Part shown: positions 4,166 to 64,000 of the stretch, in pieces
Layout: every line of letters starts with the position of its first letter
Numbering within the stretch: the stretch's first letter is position 1
NCBI GenBank assembly: GCA_963457665.1
Contig: OY735206.1
Location: 52,438,868-52,502,867, forward strand
Origin: Thysanoteuthis rhombus
Lineage: Eukaryota; Mollusca; Cephalopoda; Oegopsida; Thysanoteuthidae
DNA: 64,000 nucleotides
Direction: 5' to 3'
Position numbers and translations under genes: made by a program
Notes under the pieces: generated by a model
What the model was told of the DNA's origin: nothing
The model's input: the letters and a program-made list of their open reading frames with translations, nothing else
The model's database searches: none

Positions 4166-4369
4166 CCACGAAATGCACTTAAGAAACAATTGCAGTACAC
4201 GATTGACATAGTGATATTATTTTTCTCTCCACGTCTTCTATTGGAAGAGCCTGGACGTTGACTTTTCATTTGTAAAGCGAGAAAAAAAAAAGCGGTAAAC
4301 ACAATTTTATTGCCCTGTATTCATCCATCCGTATCTTATTTATCAATAGTTAAGTTCCTAACCAAGCGA

Positions 4370-20750: not shown

Positions 20751-22817
20751 TCAATGAGTGTGAGATTTGAGCTTTAAATGATTGCAGATCTGTTGCACCT
20801 GTGTAAATGTTTTGTTGCAGCAGGTGAGGGGTTGGTCACCATCGTGCAGATGTGTTTCAAGGTGTTTAGAAAGGTTTTCTGACTTCTGAAAAGTCTTCTG
20901 GCAAACAACGCAAACGTTCGTGGACCTCAAGTGTGTGTGTACCGACAGATGTTTCTGCATGGACATCTGACTAGGGAACAATCTGGGGCAGTATTGGCAC
21001 TTGTACATAATCTTTTGCGCATGTGTCACCAAATGCTGGAATAACAAAGACAATCGACTGAATGTCTGAGCACAAATATCACATTGATATTGTTTCTTTA
21101 CCGTATGCAGATTCATGTGGTTCCTCATTTGTTTTTCAGACGCAAACTGGCGTGAGCAAATGTTGCATTTGAAGATTGTGGCCCACGGGTGTGCGATTTC
21201 TCTGTGGCGTTTTTGGCTGAGCTGGTCATCAAAAACTTTCGAACACAGAGAGCAAGAAAATGTTTGCTTGTGCCTATTGCTCCACTGCATGTGTTCCTTC
21301 AACTGGCGTGCACTCTTGAAATCCAGCGAGCAATGCCGACAAGAGTGGTTGCTTTTCTTGTAGTGCTTGAGCAAGTGATTGAAATAAGTCATACGTTGAC
21401 TGAAAGAACTGTCACAGTACTCACAGTCAAATTTCTGTCGGGTGGCGCAGTGCCATTTGTTCATGTGAGCGGTCAATTGCTTCAGTAGTGGAAACGATTT
21501 CGTACACACATCACACTTGTAATTTGAACCCTCCATGGCAACTTTTTTCACAGTTTCATAACTAACCCTTTCAAGGCTGCATGACACAGACAAGTTAGAT
21601 TTGGTGGTTGGTTTACACTTACTCAAATGTTCTTTGTTCTCCCGAGAAGTGATGGTCAATTTTTTTTCTGTGATCCGCGTTTTGCTTTTGCTACCCTCAT
21701 GGTTACTCGCAGTTCTTGACTTTTTATTCGAGCAGACTTGGTTATTTTTATAAGGAGGTGTAACTTTGATGGTCTTGATTTGTGTCGGTTTGTTCCCAGA
21801 TGCCGAATGGACGTTCAGATGTTTCTCCAGCCTTTTATGACTCATAAAAACTCGACTACAAATTTTGCAAGGCAGAAACTTGCGTTTGTGAATTTTCTGA
21901 TGTTCCTTCAAATCAAGCTCAATGGCAAAATATTCCCCACAAACTTCACAAATTGCAGGATTCCATTCCGGATGGCTTGAGATATGCTTGGTAAGGGACT
22001 CCTTAGTTTGGAATTTTGAGTAGCAGAATTTGCAGGAATATTTCTTGAAGTTCCGCAAGCGACTAGTCCCACTGGTCTTCTTTTTATCAGTCAGAGATGA
22101 CTGTACATCTGTGAGTATGACAAGGCCGCTGCTGCCTTGTGAGCTCTTATTTTCGTTGGCAATTGCAAGTGTGTCTCGGTGGCATTTTATATGCTTGTAA
22201 AGGCTGTTACGATGACTAAAACTAACACCACAGTGGCCACATCGGTGCTGACTCATGAGGTTTTCTTTCTGTGCAGAGTGGAAAAGGCCACAGTGTTCAT
22301 CTACGTCAGACTGACGTTCAAACGCCATCCCACAAAAATCACAGTAATGTTGGAACGTGTTACTATGTTTAAACATGTGTGCACCCACTTCACTCCCTCT
22401 TTTGAACCGTTCCCCACAGTGAGCACACTTGTATGGCTTGCTAGCAACGTCCTGACCCACATCCCGAGAGCACTGACTACTGGTCACCGTGCAAGTTGCT
22501 TTCCGGTGGTAGTCGTGTTCTACTTTGGAATCGGTAAGCTCAGGAGGAGTTTCATTCTGCTGGACCGGGGTGTAGTTTGTTGCATGCTCAGCGCTCAAAT
22601 GTTCCAGCATCTCACTGTTATCATGGAAAATCTTATCACATACATGGCAAGCATAAATTGTCTTTGGTTGTGATTCCTGAGCATGGTTGGAAGTCAGTAC
22701 GATGTTGTCCTCACGGTCGGAGATTTTGTAACCAACACTATCAACAGGCCCAAGATCAAGAAGTATTTCTGTATTCTCGGTTACAGCATAGTCTATCTTC
22801 TGAGCAGCAGCTTCCAT
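20751..22817 (-). CDS. Multi-C2H2 zinc-finger protein, 688 aa
   Basis: A nuclear zinc-finger protein, expected to bind DNA sequence-specifically and act in transcription or chromatin control; the target is unknown. The uninterrupted frame has 15 well-formed C2H2 fingers (C-X2-C...H-X3-6-H). They begin near residues 55, 129, 157, 191, 260, 289, 315, 433, 463, 491, 520, 548, 577, 605 and 634. A sixteenth, from about 665, has adjacent cysteines and looks degenerate. The N-terminal 50 residues are acidic with no KRAB, SCAN, BTB or ZAD signature. Residues 338-432 form a Lys/Ser/Thr-rich linker splitting the fingers into groups of seven and nine. Linkers between fingers mostly depart from TGEKP, so the fingers are not a recently amplified tandem set. 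The start codon has A at -3 and G at +4, and a splice-acceptor-like site lies 10 bases upstream, which suggests the whole CDS sits in one exon after a 5'UTR intron. No orthologue recognised. Confidence 0.93.
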   Translation of the reverse strand: MEAAAQKIDYAVTENTEILLDLGPVDSVGYKISDREDNIVLTSNHAQESQPKTIYACHVCDKIFHDNSEMLEHLSAEHATNYTPVQQNETPPELTDSKVEHDYHRKATCTVTSSQCSRDVGQDVASKPYKCAHCGERFKRGSEVGAHMFKHSNTFQHYCDFCGMAFERQSDVDEHCGLFHSAQKENLMSQHRCGHCGVSFSHRNSLYKHIKCHRDTLAIANENKSSQGSSGLVILTDVQSSLTDKKKTSGTSRLRNFKKYSCKFCYSKFQTKESLTKHISSHPEWNPAICEVCGEYFAIELDLKEHQKIHKRKFLPCKICSRVFMSHKRLEKHLNVHSASGNKPTQIKTIKVTPPYKNNQVCSNKKSRTASNHEGSKSKTRITEKKLTITSRENKEHLSKCKPTTKSNLSVSCSLERVSYETVKKVAMEGSNYKCDVCTKSFPLLKQLTAHMNKWHCATRQKFDCEYCDSSFSQRMTYFNHLLKHYKKSNHSCRHCSLDFKSARQLKEHMQWSNRHKQTFSCSLCSKVFDDQLSQKRHREIAHPWATIFKCNICSRQFASEKQMRNHMNLHTVKKQYQCDICAQTFSRLSLLFQHLVTHAQKIMYKCQYCPRLFPSQMSMQKHLSVHTHLRSTNVCVVCQKTFQKSENLSKHLETHLHDGDQPLTCCNKTFTQVQQICNHLKLKSHTH

Positions 22818-22827
22818 TATGATTGGT

Positions 22828-22842
22828 CTGACAAGACATAAA
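22828..22842 (-). promoter_or_regulatory. Putative splice acceptor upstream of the zinc-finger start codon
   Basis: Minus strand reads TTTATGTCTTGTCAG, a pyrimidine-leaning tract ending in CAG, 10 bases before the ATG. This is consistent with a 5' UTR intron ending here. The donor is unknown and could lie anywhere to the right. Prediction only. Confidence 0.4.
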
Positions 22843-24512
22843 ATAAGGGTATCATCTGGTGTCAGATTTCAGCACATAGAGATGGTCAGATGTTTGTAAC
22901 AATTTGATCATAGGTTGATTCCTGTAAAAAGAAATACATATATATTTATATTCTGATTACCATTGATTTACAAGCAAAAAAAAAAAAATATTTGTAATTC
23001 TTTTATATTAACTCTTAAAACAATTGTGAATTTTGTTAAACAAATTGATACCTTCAATATATTTACATTCTATAATTATTTGTGTATATCATACACTCCT
23101 AATCATTGGTTATAAATTTCTGGAGAAAAAAAGAAAAAAAAAAAATCTTTCATATATAATATGGAATGATATTTCAAAATTTGTAGAGGCCAAATTTAAC
23201 CTTTATTCAACTTTTTACTGGGTTCATATGGACTAAAAAAAGATTTTATAATTTACATTATATCTTGAAACAAACTTTATACAGTATTTACATCAAAACT
23301 ACGTACATGTTCACACAAAATTACAACATGCTAACAAGAAAACATAAACAACTACACATTTCAGTGGCTAGCAGCTATTTCTGTGAAGCTGTGTAAACTG
23401 GGAATGTTTACTACAACATCAGCGTAAGGCATATAAGAAAGCAAAAATTTAATTCAACACCTTGTCAGTAACCCACAACACCATTTCACTGATAGCTTGC
23501 CTAGAAGAGCATCCCTGAAACCATCATGGTGAGGTCTTTTAAAAAATGTTGCACCACAAATGCACTGGCTGACACTGAATACATCTGTTTTGAGGAACAA
23601 AGATAGGACGATGATATTGAAGAAGGCCAAGGCATCTATAACACTGACATCATAGACGATGATTCCATGGCATCTATCTTTAACACAGACAACAGTGAAT
23701 ACGACTAAAATGTACTTAATATACATGCGAACAAAACATTTAAAACACCAGGGTTTTGTAAGTGATTTAGACTCTTTGTTACACATTAGTTAGCTTGGAT
23801 AATAGACATATACTTTCAGTCATACTGCCCCGAATATGACTATGCACTTGGCTTGGAAAGAAAAAAGTTACATTTAGTTCCCATGGATAATACGCATCCC
23901 TAAGTTTTAGATTAAAAAAATCTCGGAAAAAACTGTGTATTATACACTAATAATTACAGTATAATGATGTCAGCTCAAGACCCTGATATGATGGTAGACC
24001 AAGCAAAATTTCCAAAATTAATTTTTCTTGTTTTTTCCTATTGTATAGACCACTTGAGATTGGATAAAAAAAATGTTGTATGAAATTTGTCTCGACTAAT
24101 TTCCTCATCTGTTTTTTCTCAACGTTTCAGCCTTGTACTTTCCTGCCTTCCTCGGAGCCTGTTGTGTTCTGGAAAGTGTGTTGACCCAGGAGAGCATGCA
24201 CTTCGACTCTCATACATGTCGTATCCAGCTTTTGCGTCTCTGTGTTCTTGGGAATGTCTCTTCTTGATCTCTTCACTGACCTCATGTTGTTGTCTTGAAA
24301 ATCAGAGCAGATGATAGCACAGTTCAATCCCATTCGACAAATAGAGATTATAATCTAGCTTCATCTGATAAAAAAAATGAAGATTATATTACTTCAACTA
24401 ATATATCTAGTGTATGTGAAAACAATAACAAATATGGTGGCAAGTGATCAGGGGAAAGATAAAGGATGGGTAAAAAGGTCAGATCTGATCTTTTGCCAGT
24501 TGTCAGAGTTCT
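22843..24512. other. Intron/intergenic DNA, no gene seen
   Basis: If the acceptor at 22828 is real, part of this is intron of the zinc-finger gene. Minus-strand 23786-23454 has an open frame of 110 codons (Cys-rich, one hydrophobic stretch) without a recognisable domain. It is not called a gene. Confidence 0.4.
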
Positions 24513-28829: not shown

Positions 28830-30500
28830 TTTTGACACATTCTTCAAAACTTTTGGAAAAATCCTTGATAGATATATTAGAAAAATAACAATTAGAAAAT
28901 TTTAAAATAGATATAAACCATGCATTACAGATGGAATCATTACAAGTATCAGATGGAGAGATGTAATCTTTGGAAAATATATAAGAGCGAAAAATGAAGT
29001 TGGGCCTCTTTTCATAGCAAATACAAAGAACTCCATAATACAATCATAGATCTTAACAGGGAAAGCAAATATGATTTCTTTAAAAATCACTTCCCTAAAA
29101 TTTTAAGTATAGCAAAGAAATCTTTGAAAAGGTGATAATCAAATATCAATTTTTAAATCTAAATCCTATGATTACCTAACAAAAATGGAACATGAAAATG
29201 GTGAACCAATTAATGATCCAACTAAAATCTCAAATTAATCATCATTTCCCCAGTGTAGCTGAAAAAAATTCTAAATAAAGAAAAATACAAGGTAATGGGA
29301 ATTTGGAAGTATAATTAAAAATCACTCTTCCAAACTCAATATCAGTTATCTCAGTTGATGATAAAGAAATTTTGAATATTATACCCACATTCAAAACTTA
29401 GAAATCTACAAGCCAATTCGGTATTCTGGCAGACATATTGAAAAAAAAATGATATAGCAGAACCATTCGCTGAAATCATAAACATCTCTTTTAAAATAGG
29501 CATTCATCTAAACAACTTGAAAATAGCTGATATAATCCCAACATCTAGAACCTTTTGTAGACCTCAAATTGTAGACCAATTTTTCTTCTATCAAACATAT
29601 ATAAGATTTTTGAAACGCTAGTTTTCAACAGAGTTTATAAATTTCTACATAAATACAAATGTTTTTATAAGCTACAATTTGGATTGGATCCAAAACACTC
29701 AACTGAGCGTGCACTAATAAAACTTAAAGAAAAAAAATCAAAGAGTTAATGAATGGTTGCTCATAATAATTCTAAATGCAAAAAAATATTCATGTAGAAT
29801 ATTTGTTGATTTCTAAAAAGCATTCGCCACAGTCAGTCATGACCAACTAAGATCTGGTTTAAATCATATCTGGATTAATAGACGGCCATGTGCCTTAGTA
29901 CTCGGGGTTAAATCTCAAATGAAAATAATAGATCAAGGAGTTCCTCAAGGATTGGTACTTGGCCCCCTTCTTTGTATCAGCAACTTTCATTTTGATTTAA
30001 CAAAATCTACTACCAACTACTTTTCAGATGACACCAGTTTACTTTTGATAGAAAAATCTTATGAAAAAATACCAAAATAATTCTGACTCCAAATATCTCA
30101 ATAAAAGGTCATCGACCAATACAATTTCACCAAACTGATAAAGCAGAACTAATCCCTTTCAGAGAACTTTCAGAGAAATTACCTGAATTAATCAAAATTG
30201 AAACAGATGACCAAAGAATCTATTCTACTTCCCACATCAAATGTTTTGGTGTGTATCTCGACGAATATCTTGATGGCTCTTCTCATTGTTTAGAACCAGA
30301 AATCCAACTTGGATGGTCTAATGAAATACTAGACCATATCTAACAGCTCATAATTTTCTTCCGTTCGAAATTGTCTTCTTCCTTGTTACATGGATGTCAG
30401 GTCTGGATCGTAAAGAAGGAACTTTTTGGTTCTTATATGGAATATCCTACAGTTTAGAAATATCTTCAGCAGCCGATTGACTCTCAGAAACGCAGGAAAA
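28830..30500 (+). mobile_element. CR1/Jockey-like LINE relic, reverse transcriptase
   Basis: A long degenerate plus-strand non-LTR element. From about 28912 it reads KPCITDGIITSIRWRD, the conserved KPWIT.GI..SI...D linker between endonuclease and reverse transcriptase. It then has KYDYFKNHF-like text, VSVDDKEILNI, FGILADILKK, EIINISFK.GIH, LQFGLDPKHSTERALIKL (about 29670-29720), VDF-KAFATVSHDQL (about 29810), QGVPQGLVLGPLL (about 29940), and YFSDDTSLLL (about 30020; the catalytic FADD motif changed to FSDD). About ten stops and frameshifts break it. The 5' end and tail are not defined. Inactive. Confidence 0.75.
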
Positions 30501-30544: not shown

Positions 30545-32085
30545 ACAGAAAAATGAACGGAAAACACAAACCGAGAGTAATCAATTCGAGAATTTCCCAG
30601 AAATTACTTAATAGGATGTGAAGCAAGCCATCAAATAAATTAAGAAAAGAAAGGCCCCTGGACCCAATGACATCACCATCAACATACTCGAAGAAGCTGG
30701 AAAAGTCACCGCTGAGTAACTGACCATTCTTTTCAACTGATGCCTCAAACAAAGTAAAGTCCCAGAAGATTGGAACACTGCAATCATAATGCTGTTATAC
30801 AAAAAGGAAGCCCAAAAGACCTCCACAACTCAAGGCCAATAAGTCTACTCAACTGCATCTACAAACTTTTCTCCTAAGTGATCATCAACCGAATCGCCAA
30901 AACGTTTGATGAAAACCAACTACAGGAATAAGCTGGCTTCAGAAAAAACCCCACTTAAACATCGACCATCTCCATTCAGTAGACTAACTAAAAGAGAAAG
31001 CAACAGAATATAACATGCCACTCACTGTAGCATTTGTTGACTTTAAAAAGCCTTTGATTCAGTGGAAATCCCCAAAGTCATTAACGCAATAATACAACAA
31101 GGTGTAAACTTGTATCTGTCAGAGTACTGCAACATATCTACCGACACAGCAGTTTCTTCATCGAGCTACACAAACACTCTGAGCCCTTTCAACTAGGAAA
31201 AAAGAATGAGATAAAATGATACCAGATAACCAAAACTCTTCACAGCCTGCATTGAGATGATCTTCGGAAACCTAGAATGGGAACACAAAAGGTTTAGAAT
31301 AGATGGCGAACTCCTCAATAACCTTAAGTTTGAAGATGATAAGAACCTTGTTAAGAACCTTTACGGTCTCCAAATAATTCTGGACAAACTAAATGGAGCA
31401 AGCAAGACAGTTGGCCTCCACATGAACTTCAGCAAAATAAATGTCCTGTACAACAAGCATGTTGCGAACAGAGACAACGATCGAAATCGGAAACGCAGAT
31501 CTGGAGAAAGTAGACCACTACATCTACCTAGGACAGTGTGTCTCCATGAAGTCATCAAAAGATGAAAGAAATCAAGCAAATCACACTAAGTTGGCATGCT
31601 TTCGGTAGAGCAAGCTCAACTTTCTAGAAGAAGAAAATCCCTCAAGTTTTAAAAAGAAAGGTATACAACCAATGTATCCAACCGAGAATAATCCACACAG
31701 CTGAAATGTGGAACCTAACCAAGAGATTGACCCTCAAACTGAGAAGCATGCAACGTGTGCATGAGAGAATCATGCTCAGCCTCACATGGAGAGATCGTAA
31801 GACAGCACAGTATATACGAGGAAAGACAGGGGTCTGAGATATCATAGAAACTGTTGGAAAACTCAAATAGCAATGGGCTTGACATACTGCAAGAATGTCA
31901 GACAACCGCTGGATATCACGTCTCACATCGTGAATCCCCAGAGATCATACGCAAAATTGTGTCTGGCAGACAGTAAGATGGCGTGATGAGCTAGACAAAT
32001 TCAGAAAGTACTGGATCTGCGATGCCCATGATAGAGAGCTCTGATGAAACTCTCGGAAGGTCGGACACAAAAGGATGATCATCAT
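30545..32085 (+). mobile_element. RTE-like LINE relic, longest copy
   Basis: The longest RTE-type fragment here, about 1.5 kb. With stops and frameshifts it reads KKRKAPGPNDITINILEEAG (30640), LKQSKVPEDWNTAIIMLLYK (30735), AFVDFKK (about 31030; first catalytic Asp), then an intact stretch from 31257 (MIFGNLEWEHKRFRIDGELL). There the active site FADD reads FEDD. It continues to MQRVHERIMLSLTWRD and a C-terminal LDKFRKYW segment, ending GATGATCATCATT at 32075. The same family supplies all the short 3' fragments in this window, so this copy shows what lies upstream in the full element. Dead through many stops. Confidence 0.8.
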
Positions 32086-33116: not shown

Positions 33117-33859
33117 CGGTCTGATGATCGAGTTGTCTGAGCATAGTATGTGGGCAGCTATTTTCAGACGTCTGATTCGCCAATTCTTCTCATTCTCTAT
33201 CATGTTTACCTCGTCCATTGTGGTCTATGTGCGCCCTTCTCCCTCCACAAGTGGTCAGCTATATCAAATTTGAAAGTTACGCCACATGTTAAGGCTTTCC
33301 GATATTCCTCAATTTTCATTTTAGAGGGTTGGGGGTGAGCTCAGACATTGGCGAAGCCAATATACGAAGGATATATCAATAAGTCCGTTGCTTGACGCAG
33401 TTACAAGCTATTTCGAATTCGTTTTCTTTTTCATGTAATTAAAAGAAAATTTTTTTCAATTCGACCCCTGCCAAAAACCTGTTTGTCGCCGACACCACTA
33501 AACATTTATAGCGGCAACATTATCCACTTACTGAATTGTAAGATCTAAATCTGTCCTGTCGATCAAATCTATCAACGAGAGGCTTGGTGCTTGCTTTTCA
33601 TAGTTCAGTGCCTTTCTGTCCCTCAGTCACTGGCATTGAATATTAGCAACCCAGCTTTTTTCACCTGTAGCCCTGAAGCAATCGGTATTATTTCTATAAC
33701 AATCTAAGAGCTAACGGTTTGGGTTTTTTTTCTTTGATAAGTGTCGGACCCGTTCTTTCGAGCTTAAAGCGTAGCTCTACCTGTGGTATCAAGTCAAATT
33801 TACTGAGTCAGTCAAGCCCGGAATATTTTCTATGAATGCAAACACTAACGATAGGTCTT
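33115..33859. other. Intergenic DNA, no gene seen
   Basis: No coding or repeat signal recognised. Confidence 0.45.
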
Positions 33860-34445
33860 CATCATCGTCATCAGTCTTTTAACGTCCGTCGTTGGACGTA
33901 GTCCTTCCTCAGGATCCGCCACAATTCTCTATCATAGGCATCGCAGAGCCAGTATTTTCCGAATCTGTCCAGTTCATCTCTCCATCTTGTGTTCAGTCGG
34001 CCTCAGTTTCTTATGTGATCTCTGAGGATCCATGTTGTGAGACGTGATGTCCATCGGTTGTCTTTCATTCTTGCAACATGACCTGCCCACTTTTAAAGTT
34101 TCTATGATATCACGGACACCCATTTTCTTCTTTATATACTGTGCTGTTTTGTGATCTCTGCATGTAATGATTCTCTCATGCGCTCGTTACGTACTTCTCA
34201 GTTTGCAGGTCTGCCTCTTGGTTAGGTTCCATGTTTCAGCTCCATAAGTGACTATCGGGAGAATGCATTGGTTGTATGTACTCTTCTTTTCAGGATTAAA
34301 GGGATCATCTGGTTCTTGAAGGCTGAGCTTGCTTTGCTAAAGGCTTGCCATCCCAAAGTAATTCTTCGCTTGATTTCCTCCTCTTTTGAGGGTCTCATGG
34401 AGATTCGTTGTCAGACACAACTTCAACTCTGCTCCAGATTACTGA
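33860..34445 (-). mobile_element. RTE-like LINE 3' part, minus strand
   Basis: An imperfect (ATC)n tail at 33858-33873 is followed by the reverse complement of the shared 3' terminus (TTTTAACGTCCGTCGTTGG). It then extends further 5' than the other minus copies, through MQ-ERMRESLHAEIT-type text to sequence around 34430 corresponding to the region after VGLHMNFSK in the 31.4 kb copy. It has an internal deletion near 34090 relative to the 7.0 kb copy. Broken frames. Confidence 0.7.
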
Positions 34446-39410: not shown

Positions 39411-41386
39411 ATATCCATTGTCTAATTAAAAATGGACCCTCCCTGATCAATATCCTAGTATATTTAAATATCTTTTTTAAGAGTATTACTACACGAACCG
39501 CAAAACTAATAATTTCTTGTGTACAGCTTTACTTTTTCTTGAACATTTCACAAAATATGATCTTGTTTACCGATCTAAATAGTTTGTTTTCTCTTCTCAT
39601 AAACCATTATTCGGTATGCCCCACCTTCCTCTGACCAATCTCAGCTGTCAGCTGTTAAGTAAAAAAAATAACAAAATTACGTATCAAATAGAGCAATGGT
39701 CTATTCACTATTCGGTAAATTCCGGCAAACTCCGGTATTTCTTTTTTTTAAACAAATCTTTGTTTGATACATATTTTACTTTTTTTATAATCAAGTATAC
39801 TACATGAAACTGGGTATTTAAAAAATCGTCTACGTCTAACAACAAAATCCAGCATTTCTCCAAAATTATAACGAAAGCGTTTGATTTTTTTACCCAGAGG
39901 AACAAAACAAAGAAACCACTACCGATGTATTTGCGACTGAATGATAACCTCTGAAGAATTATGGATGGGCGTAACTGATAACAAAATTCAGTGAATATAT
40001 CTTGTTATGTTCACTTTTGTTTGATTTTATAAATATTTTTACATTATAGATATCATTTAAGACACATTCATCGGCATTTTAAAATGAAATACTGTTTTGG
40101 TGTTCATATTTTATTCAATTAATTTGGAAAAAATATACATACATATCATACACCGATAGAAACTTATTTTTGTGATTGCAGGACTTTGCAAAATAAAATA
40201 TTGTAATATAGTCTTCGTAAAACTGTAACATGACTTACAAACAGAGTGATTGCTTTCTTTCCATTACCAACAAAGAAATGAGGGTTATTTATGAATGCAA
40301 GTGTGGTATTCGAGCATACTACCTATACTGAGCTTTCGTAGTTCAAAATAGGTCAACTGCTATATGGCTTGATATAAACACTTTTTATGGATGTGTCTGT
40401 TTCTATTGTTAGTTAAACCTTAGAACCTACACAATGTAGCTCTGTACCGACTTATATTAAGACTGGAATCTCTTTATGAAGTACATTATTATTTTCAGGC
40501 TGGCCCTCACAGAACACCTAGGTAATGGCAATAAATAATCTATCCTCATAAACAATGAACTGCTTTTAAAAATTAAGGCTCTTTTCTTCCTACTTTCTTT
40601 ATCTATATTGTATGGTCATTGCGTCACATGTGTAAAAAATGGACTTTAAAAAGATAATCTGATTAGAAAAATCCGTATATATTTTCTTTCCAAATATCTT
40701 AAATAACCTTATACACGATGAAAATAATTTGTTTATATATATATATATATACATATTTTTGTGGGTGTGAGACACACACGCACACGAACAATTAAAAACC
40801 ATCATAGCAGTTCTTGTTGAGTGTTTGAATGTTTTTATCGTTCACTATTGTTGTCGGAATAACTTATGAATGTATTTTATTTTTCTATCCACGTCTATAT
40901 TTCGTATTTGACTTAGATAGTTGTTAATTATCCACCTTCATATTGATCACACGCGTATTTTGATAGACAAACAGCTGACGGCACTCAGCTTTAAAGAAAA
41001 AATATCTCTAACTGAACCAATTCTGTACTTTAACTTTGATGGACAATCATTTATTTTTTTTTTCAAGTTTCCGTTCAATTTTCATTTTGTCCTCTCCTTC
41101 GTAATTTCCTGCAACCTTTAAAGCACACCAAGTGAGTTTTGACTTTGTTTACTGGAAACACTGAAAGTAAAGGAAGTCACTAGTAAAATATGACCTACTT
41201 TATTCGTTAATGGTACGGTACTATTAACATTAAAATATATTCCCGTCTAAATAATAAATAGGTGCTGCGAATATGGACAATTCAATAAGCATAAGTCACA
41301 CACCCGATATATATCCAACACCAAATAAGGTAGAAGGTTACAAACTCGATAATATATAGGTAAAAATGACAAGCGGATTATCAGTT
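39409..41386. other. AT-rich intergenic DNA upstream of the tRNA gene
   Basis: No gene recognised. A short (TA)n lies at 40734-40751. Confidence 0.5.
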
Positions 41387-41468
41387 GCTGCGATGGCCGA
41401 GTGGTTAAGGCGTTGGACTCGAAATCCAATGGGCAATGCCCTCACAGGTTCGAATCCTGTTCGCAGCG
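41387..41468 (+). tRNA. tRNA-Ser(CGA)
   Basis: An 82-nt class II tRNA reading UCG codons. The 5' acceptor strand GCTGCGA pairs fully with TCGCAGC (41461-41467), with discriminator G. The D arm carries the A box TGGCCGAGTGG. The anticodon stem TTGGA/TCCAA encloses loop CTCGAAA with anticodon CGA at 41420-41422. A long variable arm (GGGC-AAT-GCCC, 41431-41441) identifies serine. The T arm ACAGG-TTCGAAT-CCTGT contains the B box GGTTCGAATCC. CCA is not encoded, as expected for a nuclear eukaryotic gene. A Pol III terminator TTTT follows at 41477-41480. No intron. The cloverleaf is intact, so the gene is probably functional. Confidence 0.97.
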
Positions 41469-41476
41469 ATTATTGC

Positions 41477-45599: not shown

Positions 45600-46290
45600 A
45601 AACTAAATGAATTAAATGAAGAAAGCAAAAGAGTTGGCCTAACCATGAACTTCAGTAAAACAAAAATCATGTGTAACGATTACATCGAGAATAAGGACAT
45701 AACTATCAAAATCGAAGATGCAAAACTGGGGTAAGTAGACCACGATATCTATCTAGGACAACGAATCTCCATGAAACCCTCGAAAGAGAAAGAGATCAAG
45801 CGAAGTATTACCCTAGGACGGCAAGCCTTTGGCAGAGCAAGCTCAACCTTCAAAAACAATAATCCTAAAAAGAAGAGTATACAACCAATGCATCCTCCCT
45901 ATAGTCACTTATTGAGCTAAAACATGGAACCTAACCAAGAGACAGACTCGCAAACTGAGAAGCATGCAACGCGCACATGAAGAGATCACGCGACTGCACA
46001 GTATACAAGGACGAAAACGGGGGTCAGGGACATCATAGACTCTATTAGAAAACTTAAATGGTAATGGGCAGGCCATGTTGCAAGAATGACAGACAACCGA
46101 TGGACATCACGACTCACAATATAGATCCCCTGAAAGCACATGCGAAACTGAGGCCGACAAAATGCAACATGGAGAGATGAACTGGACAAATTTAGAAAAT
46201 ACTGGCTCTGCGACGCCCATGATAGAGAAGTGTGGTGAATCCTGTGGGGGGGGGTCTATGTCCAACGATGGACGTGAAAAAACTGATGAT
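45600..46290 (+). mobile_element. RTE-like LINE 3' part
   Basis: Reads LNEESKRVGLTMNFSKTKIM (about 45600-45670), then LGQRISMKPSKEKEIKR, FGRASSTF, MQRAHE and WAGHVARMTDNRWTS (about 46065), and ends DREVW with AACGATGGACGTGAAAAA and (GAT)n at 46288. It extends further 5' than most copies here. Frameshifted. Confidence 0.78.
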
Positions 46291-47175: not shown

Positions 47176-47317
47176 TCGTTTGGCGGTATCTAGTACAATG
47201 AGAGACGTATCTGTAACACATATAGTATCGGTAGCAGCTACAAGATCCTCTCTTCTTTCCTTGTAGTCTCTTTGTCGGGCGTATTGTATAATAATATTTA
47301 CAAGGTTAAGTTGCTCA

Positions 47318-47697
47318 CCTTACCAAGAGACAGATCTACAAATTGAGAACCATGCAACGTGCGCATGAAAGAATTATGCTGGGCCTCACATGGAGAGACC
47401 ACAAAACAGCACATTACATCCAAGAAAAGACAAGAGTCAGGGACATCATAGAATCCATCAAAAATGGCGGTGGGCTGGCCATGTTGCAAGAATGACAGAC
47501 AACCGATGGACATCACGACTCACGACATGGATCCCCCGTGATCACATGCGCAACCGAGGCCGACAAAATATTAGATGGAGAGACGAGCTAGACAAGTTTA
47601 GGAAATATTGGCTCCGTGACGCCCATGATAGAGAAGTGTGGCAAATCCTAGGGAAGGTCTATGTCCAACGACGGACGTTAAAAGACTAATGATGATG
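47318..47697 (+). mobile_element. RTE-like LINE 3' end with target-site duplication
   Basis: The best-preserved LINE tail. It is open from 47390 to 47689 in the C-terminal frame (HVARMTDNRWTSRLTTWIPR, MRNRGRQNIRWRDELDKFRK, DREVWQILGKVYVQRRT) and then stops just before GATGATGA. It is 5'-truncated, starting within TTACCAAGAGACAGATC. The identical flanks AAGTTGCTCA at 47308-47317 and 47698-47707 are a 10-bp target-site duplication, direct evidence of insertion by target-primed reverse transcription. Probably the youngest of the seven RTE-like pieces. Confidence 0.85.
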
Positions 47698-47734
47698 AAG
47701 TTGCTCAGCCCATTCCTTGACGGAATTTCTTTTT

Positions 47735-50934: not shown

Positions 50935-52800
50935 GCACACTGTACTAGTATTTACTAAGTGGAATTACGCATTATTAGCATTTACCAAAGGAAAGTACAC
51001 AGTGCTAGTATTTACCAAGTAAAATTACGCATTACTAGCATTTACCAAAAGAAAGTACACAGTGCAAGTATTTACTAAGTAAAATTACGCATTATTAGCA
51101 TTTAACAAAGGAAAGTACACAGTGCTAGTATTTACCAAGTAAAATTAGGCATTACTAGCATTTACCAAAGGAAAGTACACAGTGCTAGTATTTACTAAGT
51201 AAAATTACGCATTACTAGCATTTATCAAAGGAAAGTCCACAGTGCTAGTATCTACTAAGTAAAATTACGCATTACTAGCATTTATCAAAAGAAAGTACAC
51301 AGTGCAAGTATTTACCACGTAAAATTACGCATTATTAGCATTTAACAAAGGAAAGTACACAGTGCTAGTATTTACCAAGTAAAATTAGGCATTACTAGCA
51401 TTTACCAAAGGAAAGTACACAGTGCTAGTATTTACTAAGTAAAATTACGCATTACTAGCATTTATCAAAGGAAAGTCCACAGTGCTAGTATCTACTAAGT
51501 AAAATTACGCATTACTAGCATTTATCAAAGGAAAGTCCACAGTGCTAGTATCTACTAAGTAAAATTACGCATTACTAGCATTTACCAAAAGAAAGTACAC
51601 AGTGCTAGTATCTACTAAGTAAAATTACGCATTACTAGCATTTATCAAAGGAAAGTCCACAGTGCTAGTATCTACTAAGTAAAATTACACATTACTAGCA
51701 TTTACCAAAAGAAAGTACACAGTGCTAGTATTTACCAAGTAAAATTACGTATTTCTAGCATTTATCAAAGGAAAGTCCACAGTGCTAGTATTTACTAAGT
51801 AAAATTACGCATTACTAGCATTTACCAAAAGAAAGTACACAGTGCTAGTATTTACCACGTAAAATTACGCGATATTAACATTTATCAAAGGAAAGTACAC
51901 AGTGCTTGTATTTACTAAGTAAAATTACGCATTACTAGCATTTATCAAAGGAAAGTACACAGTGCTAGTATCTACTAAGTAAAATTACGCATTACTAGCA
52001 TTTACCAAAAGAAAGTACACAGCGCTAGTATCTACTAAGTAAAATTACGCATTACTAGCATTTACCAAAAGAAAGTACACAGTGCTAGTATTTACCACGT
52101 AAAATTACGCATTATTAGCATTTACCAAAAGAAAGTACACAGTGCTAGTATTTACCACGTAAAATTACGCATTATTAGCATTTACCAAAGGAAAGTACAC
52201 AGTGCTAGTATTTACTAAGTAAAATTACGCATTACTAGCATTTATCAAAGGAAAGTCCACAGTACTAGTATCTACTAAATAAAATTACGCATTACTAGCA
52301 TTCACCAAAAGAAAGTACACAGTGCTAGTATCTACTAAGTAAAATTACGCATTACTAGCATTTACCAAAAGAAAGTACACAGTGCTAGTATTCACTAAGT
52401 AAAATTACGCATTACTAGCATTTACCAAAAGAAAGTACACAGTGCTAGTATTTACCACGTAAAATTACGCATTATTAGCATTTACCAAAGGAAAGTCCAC
52501 AGTGCTAGTATTTACCAAGTAAAATTACGCATTACTAGCATTTACCAAAGGATAGTACACAGTGCTAGTATTTACCAAGTAAAATTACACATTACTAGCA
52601 TTTATCAAAGGAAAGTACTCAGTGCTAGTATTTACTAAGTAAAATTACGCATTACTGGTATTTACTTAAGGAAAGCACGCAGTTCTAGTATTCACTAATA
52701 GAAAGTACTCAGTACTAGTATTCACTAATAGAAAGTACTCAGTACTAGTATTCACTAATAGAAAGTACTCAGTACTAGTATTTATGAAAAGAAAGTACGC
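50935..52800 (+). repeat. 60-bp satellite made of two 30-bp halves
   Basis: About 29 units whose period is exactly 60 bp without a single indel from 51001 to about 52660. Half A is AGTGCTAGTATTTACTAAGT + AAAATTACGC; half B is ATTACTAGCATTTACCAAAG + GAAAGTACAC. They match at about 20 of 30 positions, so the 60-mer is a dimer of an older 30-bp unit. Variant positions recur in blocks: 51061-51300 and 51301-51540 carry the same order of four dimer variants, a 240-bp higher-order repeat. At the right edge (about 52681-52800) the array changes to 30-bp monomers (AGTACTAGTATTCACTAATA + GAAAGTACTC). The short open frame into the left edge is incidental. Confidence 0.95.
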
Positions 52801-53140
52801 AGAACTATGTTATTTATCTCCCACGCATCTCAAGGACAATATAAGACGTCTATTCCAAGTGGGGCCCCAGCACACATACTTGCGGGTAAAGGCAAAATTT
52901 ACACAGTCCCTGCGGCCGCTTCCACAAAGGTGTCAGGGTGGACCATGGGGAAGAGCTGCCTTGGTGTTGGAATCTCTCGGGATCAGAGCTGATCACAGTA
53001 AATAGGGCGGGGAGATATTTGCAAGTCTCCCTATGAAAACATATAAGCTGAAATGGCGTAAAACGAAGAAATTTCCATTAATTAATCCGAAAAACATTGA
53101 GCATTTACTGAGCAAAAAAAAAGAGAGGGTGATAATGGAA
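52801..53140. other. Short GC-richer segment, unrecognised
   Basis: 52807-52992 is open for 61 codons (SIPSGAPAHILAGKGKIYTV) and GC-richer than its surroundings. It could be an exon or transposon piece; no family recognised. Confidence 0.3.
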
Positions 53141-56589: not shown

Positions 56590-56930
56590 CGAAAAAGAAA
56601 AGAAAAGAAAGACTGGAATTGAGAATAAAATGGATATTGAGGAAAAAAAAAAGATTGATATTAAGCAAACAAAAAGGAGAAGATATTAAGGAAAAAAAAA
56701 GAAAGACTGTTATTAGGAAAAAAAAAAAAGACTGATGTTGAAAAAAAGACTGATTTTAAGAAAAAAAAGGAAGACTATATTAAAAAAAAGAAAGATCGAT
56801 ATAATGAAAAAAAATACGGGTATTGAGAAAAAAAAAGAAAGACTGACATCGAGGAAAAAAAAGAAAGACTGATATCGAGTGAAAAAGAAAGACTGATATT
56901 AAGAATAAAAAGGAAAACTTATATTGAGAT
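56590..56930 (+). repeat. Purine-rich edge of compound minisatellite
   Basis: Irregular units of the type GAAAGACTGATATTGAGGAAA with many A-run length changes. This is the most diverged part of the array and marks its left edge. Confidence 0.85.
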
Positions 56931-58272
56931 GTCAGTCATTCTTTTCTCCTCGATATCAGTCGTTCTTTTCTCCTCAATATCAGTCATTCTTTTCTCCTCG
57001 ATATCAGTCGTTCTTTTCTCCTCAATATCAGTCATTCTTTTCTCCTCGATATCAGTCATTCTTTTCTCCTCGATATCAGTCATTCTTTTCTCCTCGATAT
57101 CAGTCATTCTTTTCTCCTCGATATCAGTCGTTCTTTTCTCCTCAATATCAGTCATTCTTTTCTCCTCGATATCAGTCATTCTTTTCTCCTCGATATCAGT
57201 CGTTCTTTTCTCCTCGATATCAGTCATTCTTTTCTCCTCGATATCAGTCTTTCTTTTCTCCTCGATATCAGTCTTTCTTTTCTCCTCGATATCAGTCTTT
57301 CTTTTCTCCTCGATATCAGTCTTTCTTTTCTCCTCGATATCAGTCTTTCTTTTCTCCTCGATATCAGTCTTTCTTTTCTCCTCGATATCAGTCTTTCTTT
57401 TCTCCTCGATATCAGTCTTTCTTTTCTCCTCGATATCAGTCTTTCTTTTCTCCTCGATATCAGTCGTTCTTTTCTCCTCGATATCAGTCGTTCTTTTCTC
57501 CTCGATATCAGTCGTTCTTTTCTCCTCGATATCAGTCGTTCTTTTCTCCTCGATATCAGTCGTTCTTTTCTCCTCGATATCAGTCGTTCTTTTCTCCTCG
57601 ATATCAGTCGTTCTTTTCTCCTCGATATCAGTCGTTCTTTTCTCCTCGATATCAGTCGTTCTTTTCTCCTCGATATCAGTCGTTCTTTTCTCCTCGATAT
57701 CAGTCGTTCTTTTCTCCTCGATATCAGTCGTTCTTTTCTCCTCGATATCAGTCGTTCTTTTCTCCTCGATATCAGTCGTTCTTTTCTCCTCGATATCAGT
57801 CGTTCTTTTCTCCTCGATATCAGTCGTTCTTGTCTCCTCGATATCAGTCGTTCTTGTCTCCTCGATATCAGTCGTTCTTGTCTCCTCGATATCAGTCGTT
57901 CTTGTCTCCTCGATATCAGTCGTTCTTGTCTCCTCGATATCAGTCGTTCTTGTCTCCTCGATATCAGTCGTTCTTGTCTCCTCGATATCAGTCGTTCTTG
58001 TCTCCTCGATATCAGTCGTTCTTGTCTCCTCGATATCAGTCGTTCTTGTCTCCTCGATATCAGTCGTTCTTGTCTCCTCGATATCAGTCGTTCTTTTCTC
58101 CTCGATATCAGTCGTTCTTTTCTCCTCGATATCAGTCGTTTTTTTCTCCTCGATATCAGTCGTTCTTTTCTCCTCATTATCAGTCATTCTTTTCTTCTCA
58201 ATATCAGTCTTTCTTTTTTTCTCAATATCAGTCTCTTTTTTCCTTGATTTCAGTCTTTCTTTTTTTCTTGAT
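56931..58272 (+). repeat. Pyrimidine 24-bp minisatellite block 1
   Basis: About 52 head-to-tail copies of a 24-bp unit, GATATCAGTCGTTCTTTTCT + CCTC on plus. Variants are clustered: CATTC and CGTTC forms to about 57240, a run of CTTTC forms about 57246-57460, CGTTC forms to 57825, and a run of eleven CTTGTCTCC forms about 57826-58080. The unit has no stop in several frames of either strand, so very long open frames (up to 459 codons) run through it on both strands. These are not treated as genes. Confidence 0.97.
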
Positions 58273-59203
58273 GTCTGATATTGAGAAAAAAAAGAAAGAC
58301 TGACATCAACAAAAAGAGACTGATATTGAGAAAAAAAGAAAGACTGATATAGAGAAAAAAAAAAAGACTGACATCAAGAAAAAAAGACTGATATTAAGAA
58401 TGAAAAAGAAAGACTGATATTAAGAATGAAGAAAAAAGACTGATATTAAGAATGAAAAAGAAAGACTGATATTAAGAATGAAAAAGAAAGACTGATATTA
58501 AGAATGAAAAAGAAAGACTGATATTAAGAATGAAAAAGAAAGACTGATATTAAGAATGAAAAAGAAAGACTGATATTAAGAATGAAAAAGAAAGACTGAT
58601 ATTAAGAATGAAAAAGAAAGACTGATATTAAGAATGAAAAAGAAAGACTGATATTAAGAATGAAAAATAAACACTAATATTAAGATGAAAAAGAAAGACT
58701 GATATTAAGAATGAAAAAGAAAGACTGATATTAAGAATGAAAAAGAAAGACTGATATTAAGAATGAAAAAGAAAGACTGATATTAAGAATGAAAAAGAAA
58801 GACTGATATAAGAGTGAAAAAGAAAGACTTATATTAAGAATGAAAAAGAAAGACTGATATTAAGAATAAAAAAGAAAGACTGATATCAAGAATAAAAAAG
58901 AAAGACTGATATCAAGAATAAAAAAGAAAGACTGATATCAAGAATAAAAAAGAAAGACTGATATCAAGAATAAAAAAGTAAGACTTATATCAAGAAAAAA
59001 AAAAGACTGATGTTGAAAAAAAGACTGATTTTAAGAAAAAAAAGGAAGACTATATTAAAAAAAAAAAGATCGATATAATGAAAAAAAATACGGGTATTGA
59101 GGAAAAAAAAAGAAAGACTGACATCGAGGAAAAAAAAAAAGACTGATATCGAGTGAAAAAGAAAGACTGATATTAAGAATAAAAAGGAAAACTAATATTG
59201 AGA
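58273..59203 (+). repeat. Purine ~26-bp minisatellite block 1
   Basis: GAAAGACTGATATTAAGAAT + GAAAAA repeated about 20 times, then AAGAATAAAAAA variants. It begins with CTGATATTGAG units that are the reverse complement of the preceding pyrimidine block, making a strand switch at about 58272. The unit is not a multiple of three, so frames are not kept. Confidence 0.95.
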
Positions 59204-60165
59204 TGTCAGTCATTCTTTTCTCCTCGATATCAGTCGTTCTTTTCTCCTCAATATCAGTCATTCTTTTCTCCTCGATATCAGTCATTCTTTTCTCCTCGAT
59301 ATCAGTCATTCTTTTCTCCTCGATATCAGTCGTTCTTTTCTCCTCGATATCAGTTGTTCTTTTCTCCTCGATATCAGTCGTTCTTTTCTCCTCGATATCA
59401 GTCGTTCTTTTCTCCTCGATATCAGTCGTTCTTTTCTCCTCGATATCAGTCGTTCTTTTCTCCTCGATATCAGTCGTTCTTTTCTCCTCGATATCAGTCG
59501 TTCTTTTCTCCTCGATATCAGTCGTTCTTTTCTCCTCGATATCAGTCGTTCTTTTCTCCTCGATATCAGTCGTTCTTTTCTCCTCGATATCAGTCGTTCT
59601 TTTCTCCTCGATATCAGTCGTTCTTTTCTCCTCGATATCAGTCGTTCTTTTCTCCTCGATATCAGTCGTTCTTTTCTCCTCGATATCAGTCATTCTTTTC
59701 TCCTCGATATCAGTCATTCTTTTCTCCTCGATATCAGTCGTTCTTTTCTCCTCGATATCAGTCGTTCTTTTCTCCTCGATATCAGTCGTTCTTTTCTCCT
59801 CGATATCAGTCGTTCTTTTCTCCTCGATATCAGTCGTTCTTTTCTCCTCGATATCAGTCGTTCTTTTCTCCTCGATATCAGTCGTTCTTTTCTCCTCGAT
59901 ATCAGTCGTTCTTTTCTCCTCGATATCAGTCATTCTTTTCTCCTCGATATCAGTCGTTCTTTTCTCCTCGATATCAGTCATTCTTTTCTCCTCAATATCA
60001 GTCATTCTTTTCTCCTCGATATCAGTCATTCTTTTCTCCTCGATATCAGTCGTTCTTTTCTCCTCATTATCAGTCATTCTTTTCTTCTCAATATCAGTCT
60101 TTCTTTTTTTCTAAATATCAGTCTCTTTTTTCCTTGATTTCAGTCTTTCTTTTTTTCTTGATGTC
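59204..60165 (+). repeat. Pyrimidine 24-bp minisatellite block 2
   Basis: About 37 copies of the 24-bp unit, mostly the CGTTCTTTTCTCC form, with CATTC variants near both ends. It lacks the CTTTC and CTTGTCTCC variant runs of block 1. Confidence 0.97.
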
Positions 60166-60991
60166 GGATATTGAGAAAAAAAAGAAAGACTGACATCAAC
60201 AAAAAGAGACTGATATTGAGAAAAAAAGAAAGACTGATATAGAGAAAAAAAAAAGACTGACATCAAGAAAAAAAGACTGATATTAAGAATGAAAAAGAAA
60301 GACTGATATTAAGAATGAAGAAGAAAGACTGATATTAAGAATGAAAAAGAAAGACTGATATTAAGAATGAAAAAGAAAGACTGATATTAAGAATGAAAAA
60401 GAAAGACTGATATTAAGAATGAAAAAGAAAGACTGATATTAAGAATGAAAAAGAAAGACTGATATTAAGAATGAAAAAGAAAGACTAATATTAAGATGAA
60501 AAAGAAAGACTGATATTAAGAATGAAAAAGAAAGACTGATATTAAGAATGAAAAAGAAAGACTGATATTAAGAATGAAAAAGAAAGACTGATATTAAGAA
60601 TGAAAAAGAAAGACTGATATTAAGAATGAAAAAGAAAGACTGATATAAGAGTGAAAAAGAAAGACTTATATTAAGAATGAAAAAGAAAGACTGATATTAA
60701 GAATAAAAAAGAAAGACTAATATCAAGAATAAAAAAGAAAGACTGATATCAAGAATAAAAAAGAAAGACTGATATCAAGAATAAAAAAGTAAGACTTATA
60801 TCAAGAAAAAAAAAAGACTGATGTTGAAAAAAAGACTGATTTTAAGAAAAAAAAGGAAGACTATATTAAAAAAAAAAAAGATCGATATAATGAAAAAAAA
60901 TACGGGTATTGAGGAAAAAAAAAGAAAGACTGACATCGAGGAAAAAAAAGAAAGACTGATATTAAGAATAAAAAGGAAAACTTATATTGAG
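60166..60991 (+). repeat. Purine ~26-bp minisatellite block 2
   Basis: Same organisation as 58273-59203 but shorter. It includes the marker variants AGACTAATATTAAGATG and GATATAAGAGTGAAAAAG, which recur in the other purine blocks. Confidence 0.95.
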
Positions 60992-61567
60992 ATGTCAGTC
61001 ATTCTTTTCTCCTCGATATCAGTCGTTCTTTTCTCCTCAATATCAGTCATTCTTTTCTCCTCGATATCAGTCATTCTTTTCTCCTCGATATCAGTCGTTC
61101 TTTTCTCCTCAATATCAGTCATTCTTTTCTCCTCGATATCAGTCGTTCTTTTCTCCTCGATATCAGTCGTTCTTTTCTCCTCGATATCAGTCATTCTTTT
61201 CTCCTCGATATCAGTCATTCTTTTCTCCTCGATATCAGTCATTCTTTTCTCCTCGATATCAGTCGTTCTTTTCTCCTCGATATCAGTCGTTCTTTTCTCC
61301 TCGATATCAGTCATTCTTTTCTCCTCGATATCAGTCGTTCTTTTCTCCTCGATATCAGTCGTTCTTGTCTCTTCGATATCAGTCATTCTTTTCTCCTCGA
61401 TATCAGTCGTTCTTGTCTCCTCGATATCAGTTGTTCTTTTCTCCTCGATATCAGTCGTTCTTGTCTTCTTGATATCAGTCTTTCTTTTCTTCTCAATATC
61501 AGTCTTATTTTTTTTCTCAATATCAGTCTCTTTTTTCCTTGATTTCAGTCTTTCTTTTTTTCTTGAT
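60992..61567 (+). repeat. Pyrimidine 24-bp minisatellite block 3
   Basis: About 20 units, then degraded CTTCTCAATATCAGTC forms ending CTTGATGTCGG. First half of a ~1405-bp higher-order unit repeated at 62397. Confidence 0.97.
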
Positions 61568-62396
61568 GTCGGATATTGAGAAAAAAAAGAAAGACTGACA
61601 TCAACAAAAAGAGACTGATATTGAGAAAAAAAGAAAGACTGATATAGAGAAAAAAAAAAGACTGACATCAAGAAAAAAAGACTGATATTAAGAATGAAAA
61701 AGAAAGACTGATATTAAGAATGAAGAAGAAAGACTGATATTAAGAATGAAAAAGAAAAACTGATATTAAGAATGAAAAAGAAAGACTGATATTAAGAATG
61801 AAAAAGAAAGACTGATATTAAGAATGAAAAAGAAAGACTGATATTAAGAATGAAAAAGAAAGACTGATATTAAGAATGAAAAAGAAAGACTAATATTAAG
61901 ATGAAAAAGAAAGACTGATATTAAGAATGAAAAAGAAAGACTGATATTAAGAATGAAAAAGAAAGACTGATATTAAGAATGAAAAAGAAAGACTGATATT
62001 AAGAATGAAAAAGAAAGACTGATATTAAGAATGAAAAAGAAAGACTGATATAAGAGTGAAAAAGAAAGACTTATATTAAGAATGAAAAAGAAAGACTGAT
62101 ATTAAGAATAAAAAAGAAAGACTAATATCAAGAATAAAAAAGAAAGACTGATATCAAGAATAAAAAAGAAAGACTGATATCAAGAATAAAAAAGTAAGAC
62201 TTATATCAAGAAAAAAAAAAGACTGATGTTGAAAAAAAGACTGATTTTAAGAAAAAAAAGGAAGACTATATTAAAAAAAAAAAAGATCGATATAATGAAA
62301 AAAAATACGGGTATTGAGGAAAAAAAAAGAAAGACTGACATCGAGGAAAAAAAAGAAAGACTGATATTAAGAATAAAAAGGAAAACTTATATTGAG
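61568..62396 (+). repeat. Purine ~26-bp minisatellite block 3
   Basis: Nearly the same as 60166-60991 in order of variants (about 829 bp against 826 bp). Confidence 0.95.
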
Positions 62397-62972
62397 ATGT
62401 CAGTCATTCTTTTCTCCTCGATATCAGTCGTTCTTTTCTCCTCAATATCAGTCATTCTTTTCTCCTCGATATCAGTCATTCTTTTCTCCTCGATATCAGT
62501 CGTTCTTTTCTCCTCAATATCAGTCATTCTTTTCTCCTCGATATCAGTCGTTCTTTTCTCCTCGATATCAGTCGTTCTTTTCTCCTCGATATCAGTCATT
62601 CTTTTCTCCTCGATATCAGTCATTCTTTTCTCCTCGATATCAGTCATTCTTTTCTCCTCGATATCAGTCGTTCTTTTCTCCTCGATATCAGTCGTTCTTT
62701 TCTCCTCGATATCAGTCATTCTTTTCTCCTCGATATCAGTCGTTCTTTTCTCCTCGATATCAGTCGTTCTTGTCTCTTCGATATCAGTCATTCTTTTCTC
62801 CTCGATATCAGTCGTTCTTGTCTCCTCGATATCAGTTGTTCTTTTCTCCTCGATATCAGTCGTTCTTGTCTTCTTGATATCAGTCTTTCTTTTCTTCTCA
62901 ATATCAGTCTTATTTTTTTTCTCAATATCAGTCTCTTTTTTCCTTGATTTCAGTCTTTCTTTTTTTCTTGAT
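62397..62972 (+). repeat. Pyrimidine 24-bp minisatellite block 4
   Basis: Near-identical to block 3, including the rare CTTGTCTCTTCG and CAGTTGTTC variants in the same order. It begins exactly 1405 bp later. Confidence 0.97.
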
Positions 62973-64000
62973 GTCTGATATCGAGAAAAAAAAGAAAGAC
63001 TGACATCAACAGAAAGAGACTGATATTGAGAAAAAAAGAAAGACTGATATAGAGAAAAAAAAAAGACTGACATCAAGAAAAAAAGACTGATATTAACAAT
63101 GAAAAAGAAAGACTGATATTAAGAATGAAGAAGAAAGACTGATATTAAGAATGAAAAAGAAAGACTGATATTAAGAATGAAAAAGAAAGACTGATATTAA
63201 GAATGAAAAAGAAAGACTGATATTAAGAATGAAAAAGAAAGACTGATATTAAGAATGAAAAAGAAAGACTGATATTAAGAATGAAAAAGAAAGACTGATA
63301 TTAAGATGAAAAAGAAAGACTGATATTAAGAATGAAAAAGAAAGACTGATATTAAGAATGAAAAAGAAAGACTGATATTAAGAATGAAAAAGAAAGACTG
63401 ATATTAAGAATGAAAAAGAAAAACTGATATAAGAGTGAAAAAGAAAGACTTATATTAAGAATGAAAAAGAAAGACTGATATTAAGAATAAAAAAGAAAGA
63501 CTGATATTAAGAATAAAAAAGAAAGACTGATATTAAGAATGAAAAAGAAAGACTGATATCAAGAATAAAAAAGGAAGACTGATATCAAGAATAAAAAAGA
63601 AAGACTGATATCAAGAATAAAAAAGAAAGACTGATATCAAGAATAAAAAAGAAAGACTGATATCAAGAATAAAAAAGAAAGACTGATATCAAGAATAAAA
63701 AAGAAAGACTGATATCAAGAATAAAAAAGAAAGACTGATATTAAGAATAAAAAAGGACTGATATTAAGAATAAAAAAGAAAGACTGATATCAAGAAAGAA
63801 AGACTGGCATCAAGAAAGAAAGAAAAACTGATATTGACAGAAAAAGAAAAACTGATATTGACAAAAAAAGAAAAACTGATATTGACAAAAAAAGAAAAAC
63901 TGATATTGACAAAAAAAGAAAAACTGATATTGAGAAAAAAAGAAAGACTGATATTGAGAAAAAAAGAAAGACTGACATCAAGAAAAAAAGAAAGACTGAC
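62973..64000 (+). repeat. Purine minisatellite block 4, runs off the window
   Basis: Starts like blocks 1-3, then from about 63540 changes to AAGAATAAAAAA and, from about 63790, to ATATTGACAAAAAAAGAAAA units. The array continues past 64000, so its right edge is not seen. Confidence 0.95.

Follow-up and report, generated by a model that had tools for sequence, protein, structure and literature searches.

We examined a 64,000-bp stretch of the genome of the cephalopod Thysanoteuthis rhombus (assembly GCA_963457665.1, contig OY735206.1, C9:52438868-52502867; hereafter the window, whose numbering is used throughout). The assembly comprises 2.73 Gb in 514 contigs, and the 50 kb downstream of the window were added to the analysis. 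From 56590 to its end, the window is occupied by one minisatellite family whose orientation alternates block by block, with four pyrimidine-rich (Py) and five purine-rich (Pu) blocks. This is very probably a single-locus minisatellite of the variable number tandem repeat (VNTR) type with a bidirectional higher-order unit that, judging from the sequence, formed once and was then tandemly duplicated.

A preliminary description of the window put the array at 7.4 kb or more. The start at 56590 holds, whereas the extent has to be corrected to ~17.1 kb. With the contiguous genome sequence included, the array runs to ~73710 (17,121 bp, made up of 8036 bp of Py and 9085 bp of Pu; approximately C9:52495457-52512577), and its final monomer is at 73686-73712. 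It consists of seven Py and eight Pu blocks, 15 in all with 14 switches, and is flanked on both sides by non-array sequence. Beyond the window, the end of Pu4 (64480) is followed by Py5, Pu5, Py6, Pu6, Py7, and Pu7. Py block lengths within the locus range from 582 to 2478 bp.

The units are versions of one motif on alternating strands, as had been proposed. On the purine-rich strand, the modal Py monomer reads, in reverse complement, GACTGATATCGAGGAGAAAAGAAC (24 bp), and that of the Pu units reads GACTGATATTAAGAATGAAAAAGAAA (26 bp); the two can be aligned end to end with a length difference of 2 bp. Both lengths lie within the tandem units of ~10-100 bp that characterize minisatellites. Tandem Repeats Finder (TRF) recovered the fourfold alternation described for the window, with four 24-bp Py arrays (Table 1) and ~26-bp Pu arrays between and after them. 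Matches to the core GACTGATAT, allowing at most one mismatch, form nine blocks, each on a single strand, between 56653 and the end of the window, while upstream of 56590 they are scattered (12 + 6 in 56.6 kb).

Monomer, composition, and tract statistics refer to the part of the array inside the window. Pu monomers are more variable than Py monomers: 136 of 144 Py pieces measure 24 bp and 84 of 147 Pu pieces measure 26 bp, and there are 19 distinct Py types and 46 distinct Pu types, with one common to both. (These counts, like the register scan, end-resemblance, and permutation tests below, leave out the piece before the first core match of each block.) The units diverge towards the block edges. 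The mean similarity to the modal monomer, computed without Pu0, is 0.17 for Py and -0.06 for Pu at the edges (truncated pieces), and reaches ~0.95 at nine or more monomers inward. The blocks had been called polypurine and polypyrimidine; they are indeed purine- or pyrimidine-rich (76-78% and 74-75% of one class in the nine blocks) but not pure, since no pure tract exceeds 22 nt and those of at least 15 nt hold 12% of the bases.

Repetitive coding sequence would account for the open frames of the Py blocks (the longest open reading frame (ORF) has 484 aa, and Py1 is open in all three forward frames and in two reverse ones, of which one stays open through just part of the block), but it is scarcely credible. 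A stop-free 24-bp unit keeps frames open mechanically, openness in five frames at once does not indicate coding, and the frame is not kept across the 26-bp Pu units.

The units were found at this locus alone. The pattern GATATCAGTCRTTCTTTTCTCCTC has 210 matches assembly-wide, all on the + strand, and 210 were counted inside the array; the Pu pattern GACTGATATYAAGAATRAAAAAGAAA has 127 assembly-wide and 127 inside the array. The first 100 places of each are all on C9, and the location of the remainder follows from the equal counts. A 37-mer that spans two Pu-like units, searched with up to three mismatches, has 66 of 66 matches within the array (C9:52497040-52512492). No second locus was found assembly-wide by the unit patterns or by this 37-mer, a search that did not extend to more diverged relatives. 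Equal genome and local counts are what the locus specificity of a minisatellite implies, and the whole-assembly pattern counts rule out a genome-wide satellite for these units. A viral collection gave 0 matches for either of two unit patterns.

About 7 kb past the main array, a related 26-bp unit, GGCCGATATTGAGGATAAAAGAGAAA, makes up a small array of its own, and the pattern of this unit has 10 matches genome-wide, all of them there. This small array may be what is left of an ancestor with a single orientation.

Table 1. Features of the window and of the adjoining downstream sequence (window numbering)
Feature	Position	Strand	Description
Pu0	56590-56925	+	left array edge, degenerate purine-rich monomers
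Py1	56926-58275	-	24-bp monomers, reverse orientation; TRF 56928-58263, 55.8 copies, 97%
Pu1	58276-59199	+	chiefly 26-bp monomers
Py2	59200-60163	-	24-bp monomers; TRF 59202-60153, 39.8 copies, 96%
Pu2	60164-60988	+	
Py3	60989-61572	-	TRF 60991-61558
Pu3	61573-62393	+	
Py4	62394-62977	-	TRF 62396-62963
Pu4	62978-64000	+	continues past the window to 64480
Pu-to-Py joint 1 with tail cassette	56728-56989		homologues near 59199, 60988, and 62393, and three past the window
Py-to-Pu joint 1	58201-58350		diverged palindrome, 40-bp exact arms 58201-58240 and 58311-58350
Exact 1405-bp period	60068-62029		1961 bp, at least 97% in 150-bp windows
Small array of GGCCGATATTGAGGATAAAAGAGAAA	80860-81265		Pu orientation, 16 copies
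Second tandem array	50937-52802		60-bp unit, 31.1 copies, 91%
Stop-to-stop open frame	20751-22868	-	705 aa, several C2H2 zinc fingers, Pfam PF00096, E 1.5e-43
Dispersed repeat	4356-4702, 6989-7247, 31650-32059, 33856-34091, 45866-46250, 47317-47703	both	copies ~66-90% alike
Reverse transcriptase match	29817-30077		weak, E 0.00017, below the Pfam cut-off
Apparent tRNA-Ser(CGA) gene	41386-41469		Rfam tRNA match 41387-41468

Joints and the compound unit

The 14 switches share their sequences within each of two classes. Gaps excluded, the seven Pu-to-Py joints are 97.5-100% identical over 261-bp stretches (98.1-99.6% for the first against the other six), and the core-to-core distance across them is 38 bp in 7/7. 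The seven Py-to-Pu joints are 90.4-99.1% identical over 230-bp stretches. From ~56728, Pu0 is nearly identical to the tail that leads into all the later Py blocks, and the whole of Pu0 agrees with Pu1 at 292 of 332 aligned bases. The near-identical joints, together with the Pu0 tail cassette ahead of each later Py block, point to one bidirectional unit that was copied and not to 14 independent switches. The repeated strand switching of the preliminary description thus stands as an alternation of orientation, but not as a series of separate events. That every switch is an independent inversion within a formerly uniform array is very improbable: inversions inside satellite arrays are known, at least from the available text of PMC2588610, but here the sequence barely changes among the seven joints of a class, and Pu1, Pu2, and Pu3 are also nearly the same over their aligned bases.

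These three blocks are 99.4-99.9% identical to one another over aligned bases (818/822 for Pu1/Pu2 and 820/821 for Pu2/Pu3), with 105 gap columns in each comparison that involves Pu1 and four in Pu2/Pu3. Py3 and Py4 are identical at 583 of 584 positions, gap-free, and the identity of Py1 and Py2 is 97.0%. The stretch that follows an exact 1405-bp period appears to be the youngest-looking compound duplication. From the start of one Py block to the start of the next, the seven blocks are spaced by 2274, 1789, 1405, 2087, 3808, and 1952 bp. The preferred reading of the alternation is that a single compound unit was duplicated in tandem.

Assemblies are known to be prone to error at palindromic joints and in near-identical units of 1.4 kb, and chimeric or hairpin reads could have created false switches. 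We consider such a fold-back artefact quite unlikely because the arms are diverged and not identical. An artefact of this kind predicts exact reverse-complement arms, but the unit lengths of the arms differ and a single monomer type is shared. In addition, each class of joint occurs in seven copies that differ slightly from one another, and there are no N bases in the window or in the 50 kb downstream.

Several observations weigh against a simple history of duplication at a single locus. Some blocks are less alike than those above (Py1/Py3 93.3%, Pu1/Pu4 92.8%), and Pu0 is 80-88% identical to the other Pu blocks (80.4% for Pu0/Pu4). The edge gradient is uneven in Pu, where similarity drops to 0.18 at the fourth monomer. 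The genome counts of large families may be lower bounds, and simple repeats were skipped in counting. Finally, the block copy numbers are the part of the assembled structure that is most likely wrong.

From the assembled structure we infer the order of events, a fold-back origin, and the mechanism of exchange. A short purine-rich motif of 24-26 bp with the core GACTGATAT would first have made a tandem array. A single rearrangement may then have reversed a segment inside it, giving the order Pu-left, Py, Pu-right, and the entire bidirectional unit would have been tandemly duplicated up to seven Py blocks. Slippage or unequal exchange within blocks would alter copy number and homogenize the centres, leaving divergent variants near the joints.

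Folding and the first strand switch

The two classes of joints differ in their symmetry. At the four Pu-to-Py joints of the window the longest exact arms are 13, 13, 10, and 10 bp. The first Py-to-Pu joint is a diverged palindrome (Table 1), and the exact arms of its homologues near 60163, 61572, and 62977 are 22, 27, and 25 bp. In alignments of the four Py-to-Pu joints of the window, both sides mirror each other outward from the centre.

Hairpin potential had been proposed for the array, and the predicted folding bears it out. A 300-nt segment at the first Py-to-Pu joint folds at -141.2 kcal/mol as RNA, against -60.5 for shuffles (z -16.3), and at -87.6 as DNA (z -14.8); the first Pu-to-Py joint folds at -101.9 (z -11.6). 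The 1405-nt unit made of Py3 and Pu3 reaches -510.6 kcal/mol (-587.0 on the other strand), whereas the same unit with its Py block turned round, as a single-orientation control, reaches -138.8 kcal/mol. Folding is lost on turning the Py block, so the folding potential comes from the inversion. On these predictions, the locus could form hairpins, or double-stranded RNA (dsRNA) if transcribed. Triplex (H-DNA) formation, which had also been suggested, is poorly supported, given the 22-nt limit on pure tracts and a longest pure homopurine or homopyrimidine mirror repeat of 17 nt in the window part of the array.

Strong predicted folding that disappears when the Py block is turned round is also what would be expected of a functional source of hairpins or dsRNA, or of a locus that is kept because its arms pair, as a regulatory RNA or a fragile site. 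A further hint comes from Pu6, where a 37-mer found elsewhere only in Py5 and Py6 mirrors the Py6 copy, as might result from arm-to-arm copying. Such a function is nevertheless unlikely: there is one locus only, the block lengths differ greatly, and folding is an automatic result of the inverted arrangement. The array most likely has no dedicated function.

A possible case of arm-to-arm copying is seen at the head of Pu6. It differs from the other six Pu heads in 19 alignment columns at which those six agree (seven substitutions, six insertion columns, and six end gaps). Four of the seven substitutions carry the Py6 base (columns 77, 88, 98, and 165) and three do not (58, 110, and 114). The 37-mer across this tract occurs three times, in Py5 (66856), Py6 (68768-68804), and Pu6 (68937-68973), and the Py6 and Pu6 copies lie symmetrically on either side of the joint near 68870. 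Copying or conversion between arms at 68937-68973 is only suggested by this pattern and would amount to one event at most. It is doubtful that the palindromic Py-to-Pu joint is an active element whose arms pair in vivo, copy each other, and drive duplication of the unit, which would make the locus a palindromic minisatellite that amplifies itself and, if transcribed, gives long dsRNA.

How the first switch arose can be approached through the resemblance of monomers across the joints. In a permutation test restricted to pieces of 18-28 bp, at all seven Py-to-Pu joints the four Py monomers nearest the joint matched the four nearest Pu monomers better than random Py monomers did, which reached the score in only 0-3 of 2000 draws. 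The Pu-to-Py joints showed no such fit, the score being reached in 52-91% of draws with random Py monomers and in 35-96% with random Pu monomers. When the Pu monomers are held fixed in a register scan, the highest score falls on the in-register Py position at 4/4 joints. The Py end at the Py-to-Pu joint resembles the near Pu (0.74-0.78) more than the opposite Pu (0.56-0.59) in the four window units, which favours a fold-back. Together with the diverged palindrome at this joint, which also favours a fold-back over a plain inversion, these comparisons make a fold-back (template-switch) inverted duplication the somewhat likelier origin of the first switch.

Other comparisons weigh against a fold-back. 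Random Pu draws reached the score at the Py-to-Pu joints in fractions of 0.04, 0.21, 0.07, 0.30, 0.21, 0.0015, and 0.28, below 0.05 at 2/7 joints. With the Py monomers held fixed, the in-register position is the best at 1/4 joints, and the k=3 Pu register is slightly higher at 3/4. At the Pu-to-Py joint, the Py end resembles the near Pu at 0.56-0.69 and the opposite Pu at 0.69-0.71 (four window units). The weak random-Pu control and the k=3 register suggest that the symmetry of the Py-to-Pu joints may partly reflect old variants retained at block edges, and a simple inversion combined with such variants is the alternative origin.

Other features of the window

The remaining features of the window lie upstream of the array (Table 1). 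The 60-bp unit of the second tandem array is a diverged dimer of 30-bp units (~92% and 66% alike in the two phases). The copies of the dispersed repeat are presumably pieces of a non-LTR (long terminal repeat) retrotransposon; three ORFs that overlap them had no Pfam match. A scan of the window with Rfam gathering thresholds found no RNA family beyond the tRNA match.

Comparison with known systems

Ordinary minisatellites and VNTR loci hold one orientation throughout. The array described here is like them in its unit length, its single locus, its degeneration at the edges, and its copy-number differences in whole units, and unlike them in that its orientation alternates. Literature text matches to three motif 10-mers were to unrelated work among the matches listed. 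The open-licence literature, in the portions available, yielded no description of a minisatellite that occupies a single locus and repeats a bidirectional unit in tandem. The array is unusual, but it is of a known repeat kind, and the usual dynamics of repeats, following a single inverted rearrangement, account for it.

The preliminary description knew of no satellite with such an architecture, a statement that published arrays of Tribolium and of human HSatII and GSATII contradict. In the available text of PMC2588610, the higher-order repeats of HSatII at 16q11.2 (70.7 kb) are ~5.8 kb long and run in either orientation, and GSATII at 12p11.1 (121 kb) has multiple inversions. Both resemble the T. 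rhombus locus as tandem arrays with orientation reversals, and HSatII also in having higher-order repeats; they differ in their larger size, and the same text describes no fixed tandem bidirectional unit for them. Oppositely oriented HSat3 arrays are reported between groups of gorilla chromosomes in the excerpts of PMC12767296. Macro-dyad symmetries formed by satellite arrays are said in the accessible part of PMC13081366 to be documented only in Tribolium, and the orientation reversals of HSatII and GSATII mean that this statement needs qualifying. In the portion available of PMC13427858, macro-dyads are named only in the reference list. Macro-dyad satellite DNA of the Tribolium type is abundant, in large putative (peri)centromeric domains; the T. 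rhombus array differs in abundance, with one 17-kb locus found.

The 1061-bp satellite of Tribolium brevicornis has inverted segments of ~470 bp, as cited in the same part of PMC13081366. Like the unit described here, it is a tandem complex unit of two inversely oriented parts; in T. rhombus, by contrast, each arm is itself a variable-length minisatellite array, and the unit was found at one locus.

A close likeness in organization, as distinct from sequence, is to TmSat1 and TmSat2 of Tribolium madens, which according to the available text of PMC13081366 form inverted subarrays with diverged but conserved inversion sites and cassettes of variable repeat number. In both species, repeats of the same origin switch orientation to form inverted subarrays (here 15 blocks with 14 switches), the units at the inversion sites are diverged from the standard yet conserved (here with edge monomers far from the modal ones and joints that are 97.5-100% or 90-99% identical), and the number of repeats varies between fixed joints. 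TmSat1 and TmSat2 have repeats of 225 and 704 bp in thousands of arrays across megabase putative (peri)centromeric regions, checked with HiFi reads, whereas the T. rhombus array has monomers of 24-26 bp and seven copies of the unit at one 17-kb locus known from the assembly. The conserved inversion sites of the Tribolium arrays were read, in the part of that paper at hand, as a possible sign of function. At the T. rhombus locus, a Tribolium-like pattern of diverged, conserved joints and variable arms can be explained by one rearrangement and tandem duplication of a compound unit, with no need of selection. Every copy can be listed at this one small locus, which makes it a tractable model for the start of bidirectional satellites. 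It is also a natural place to test for instability of long imperfect inverted arms and for dsRNA production from them.

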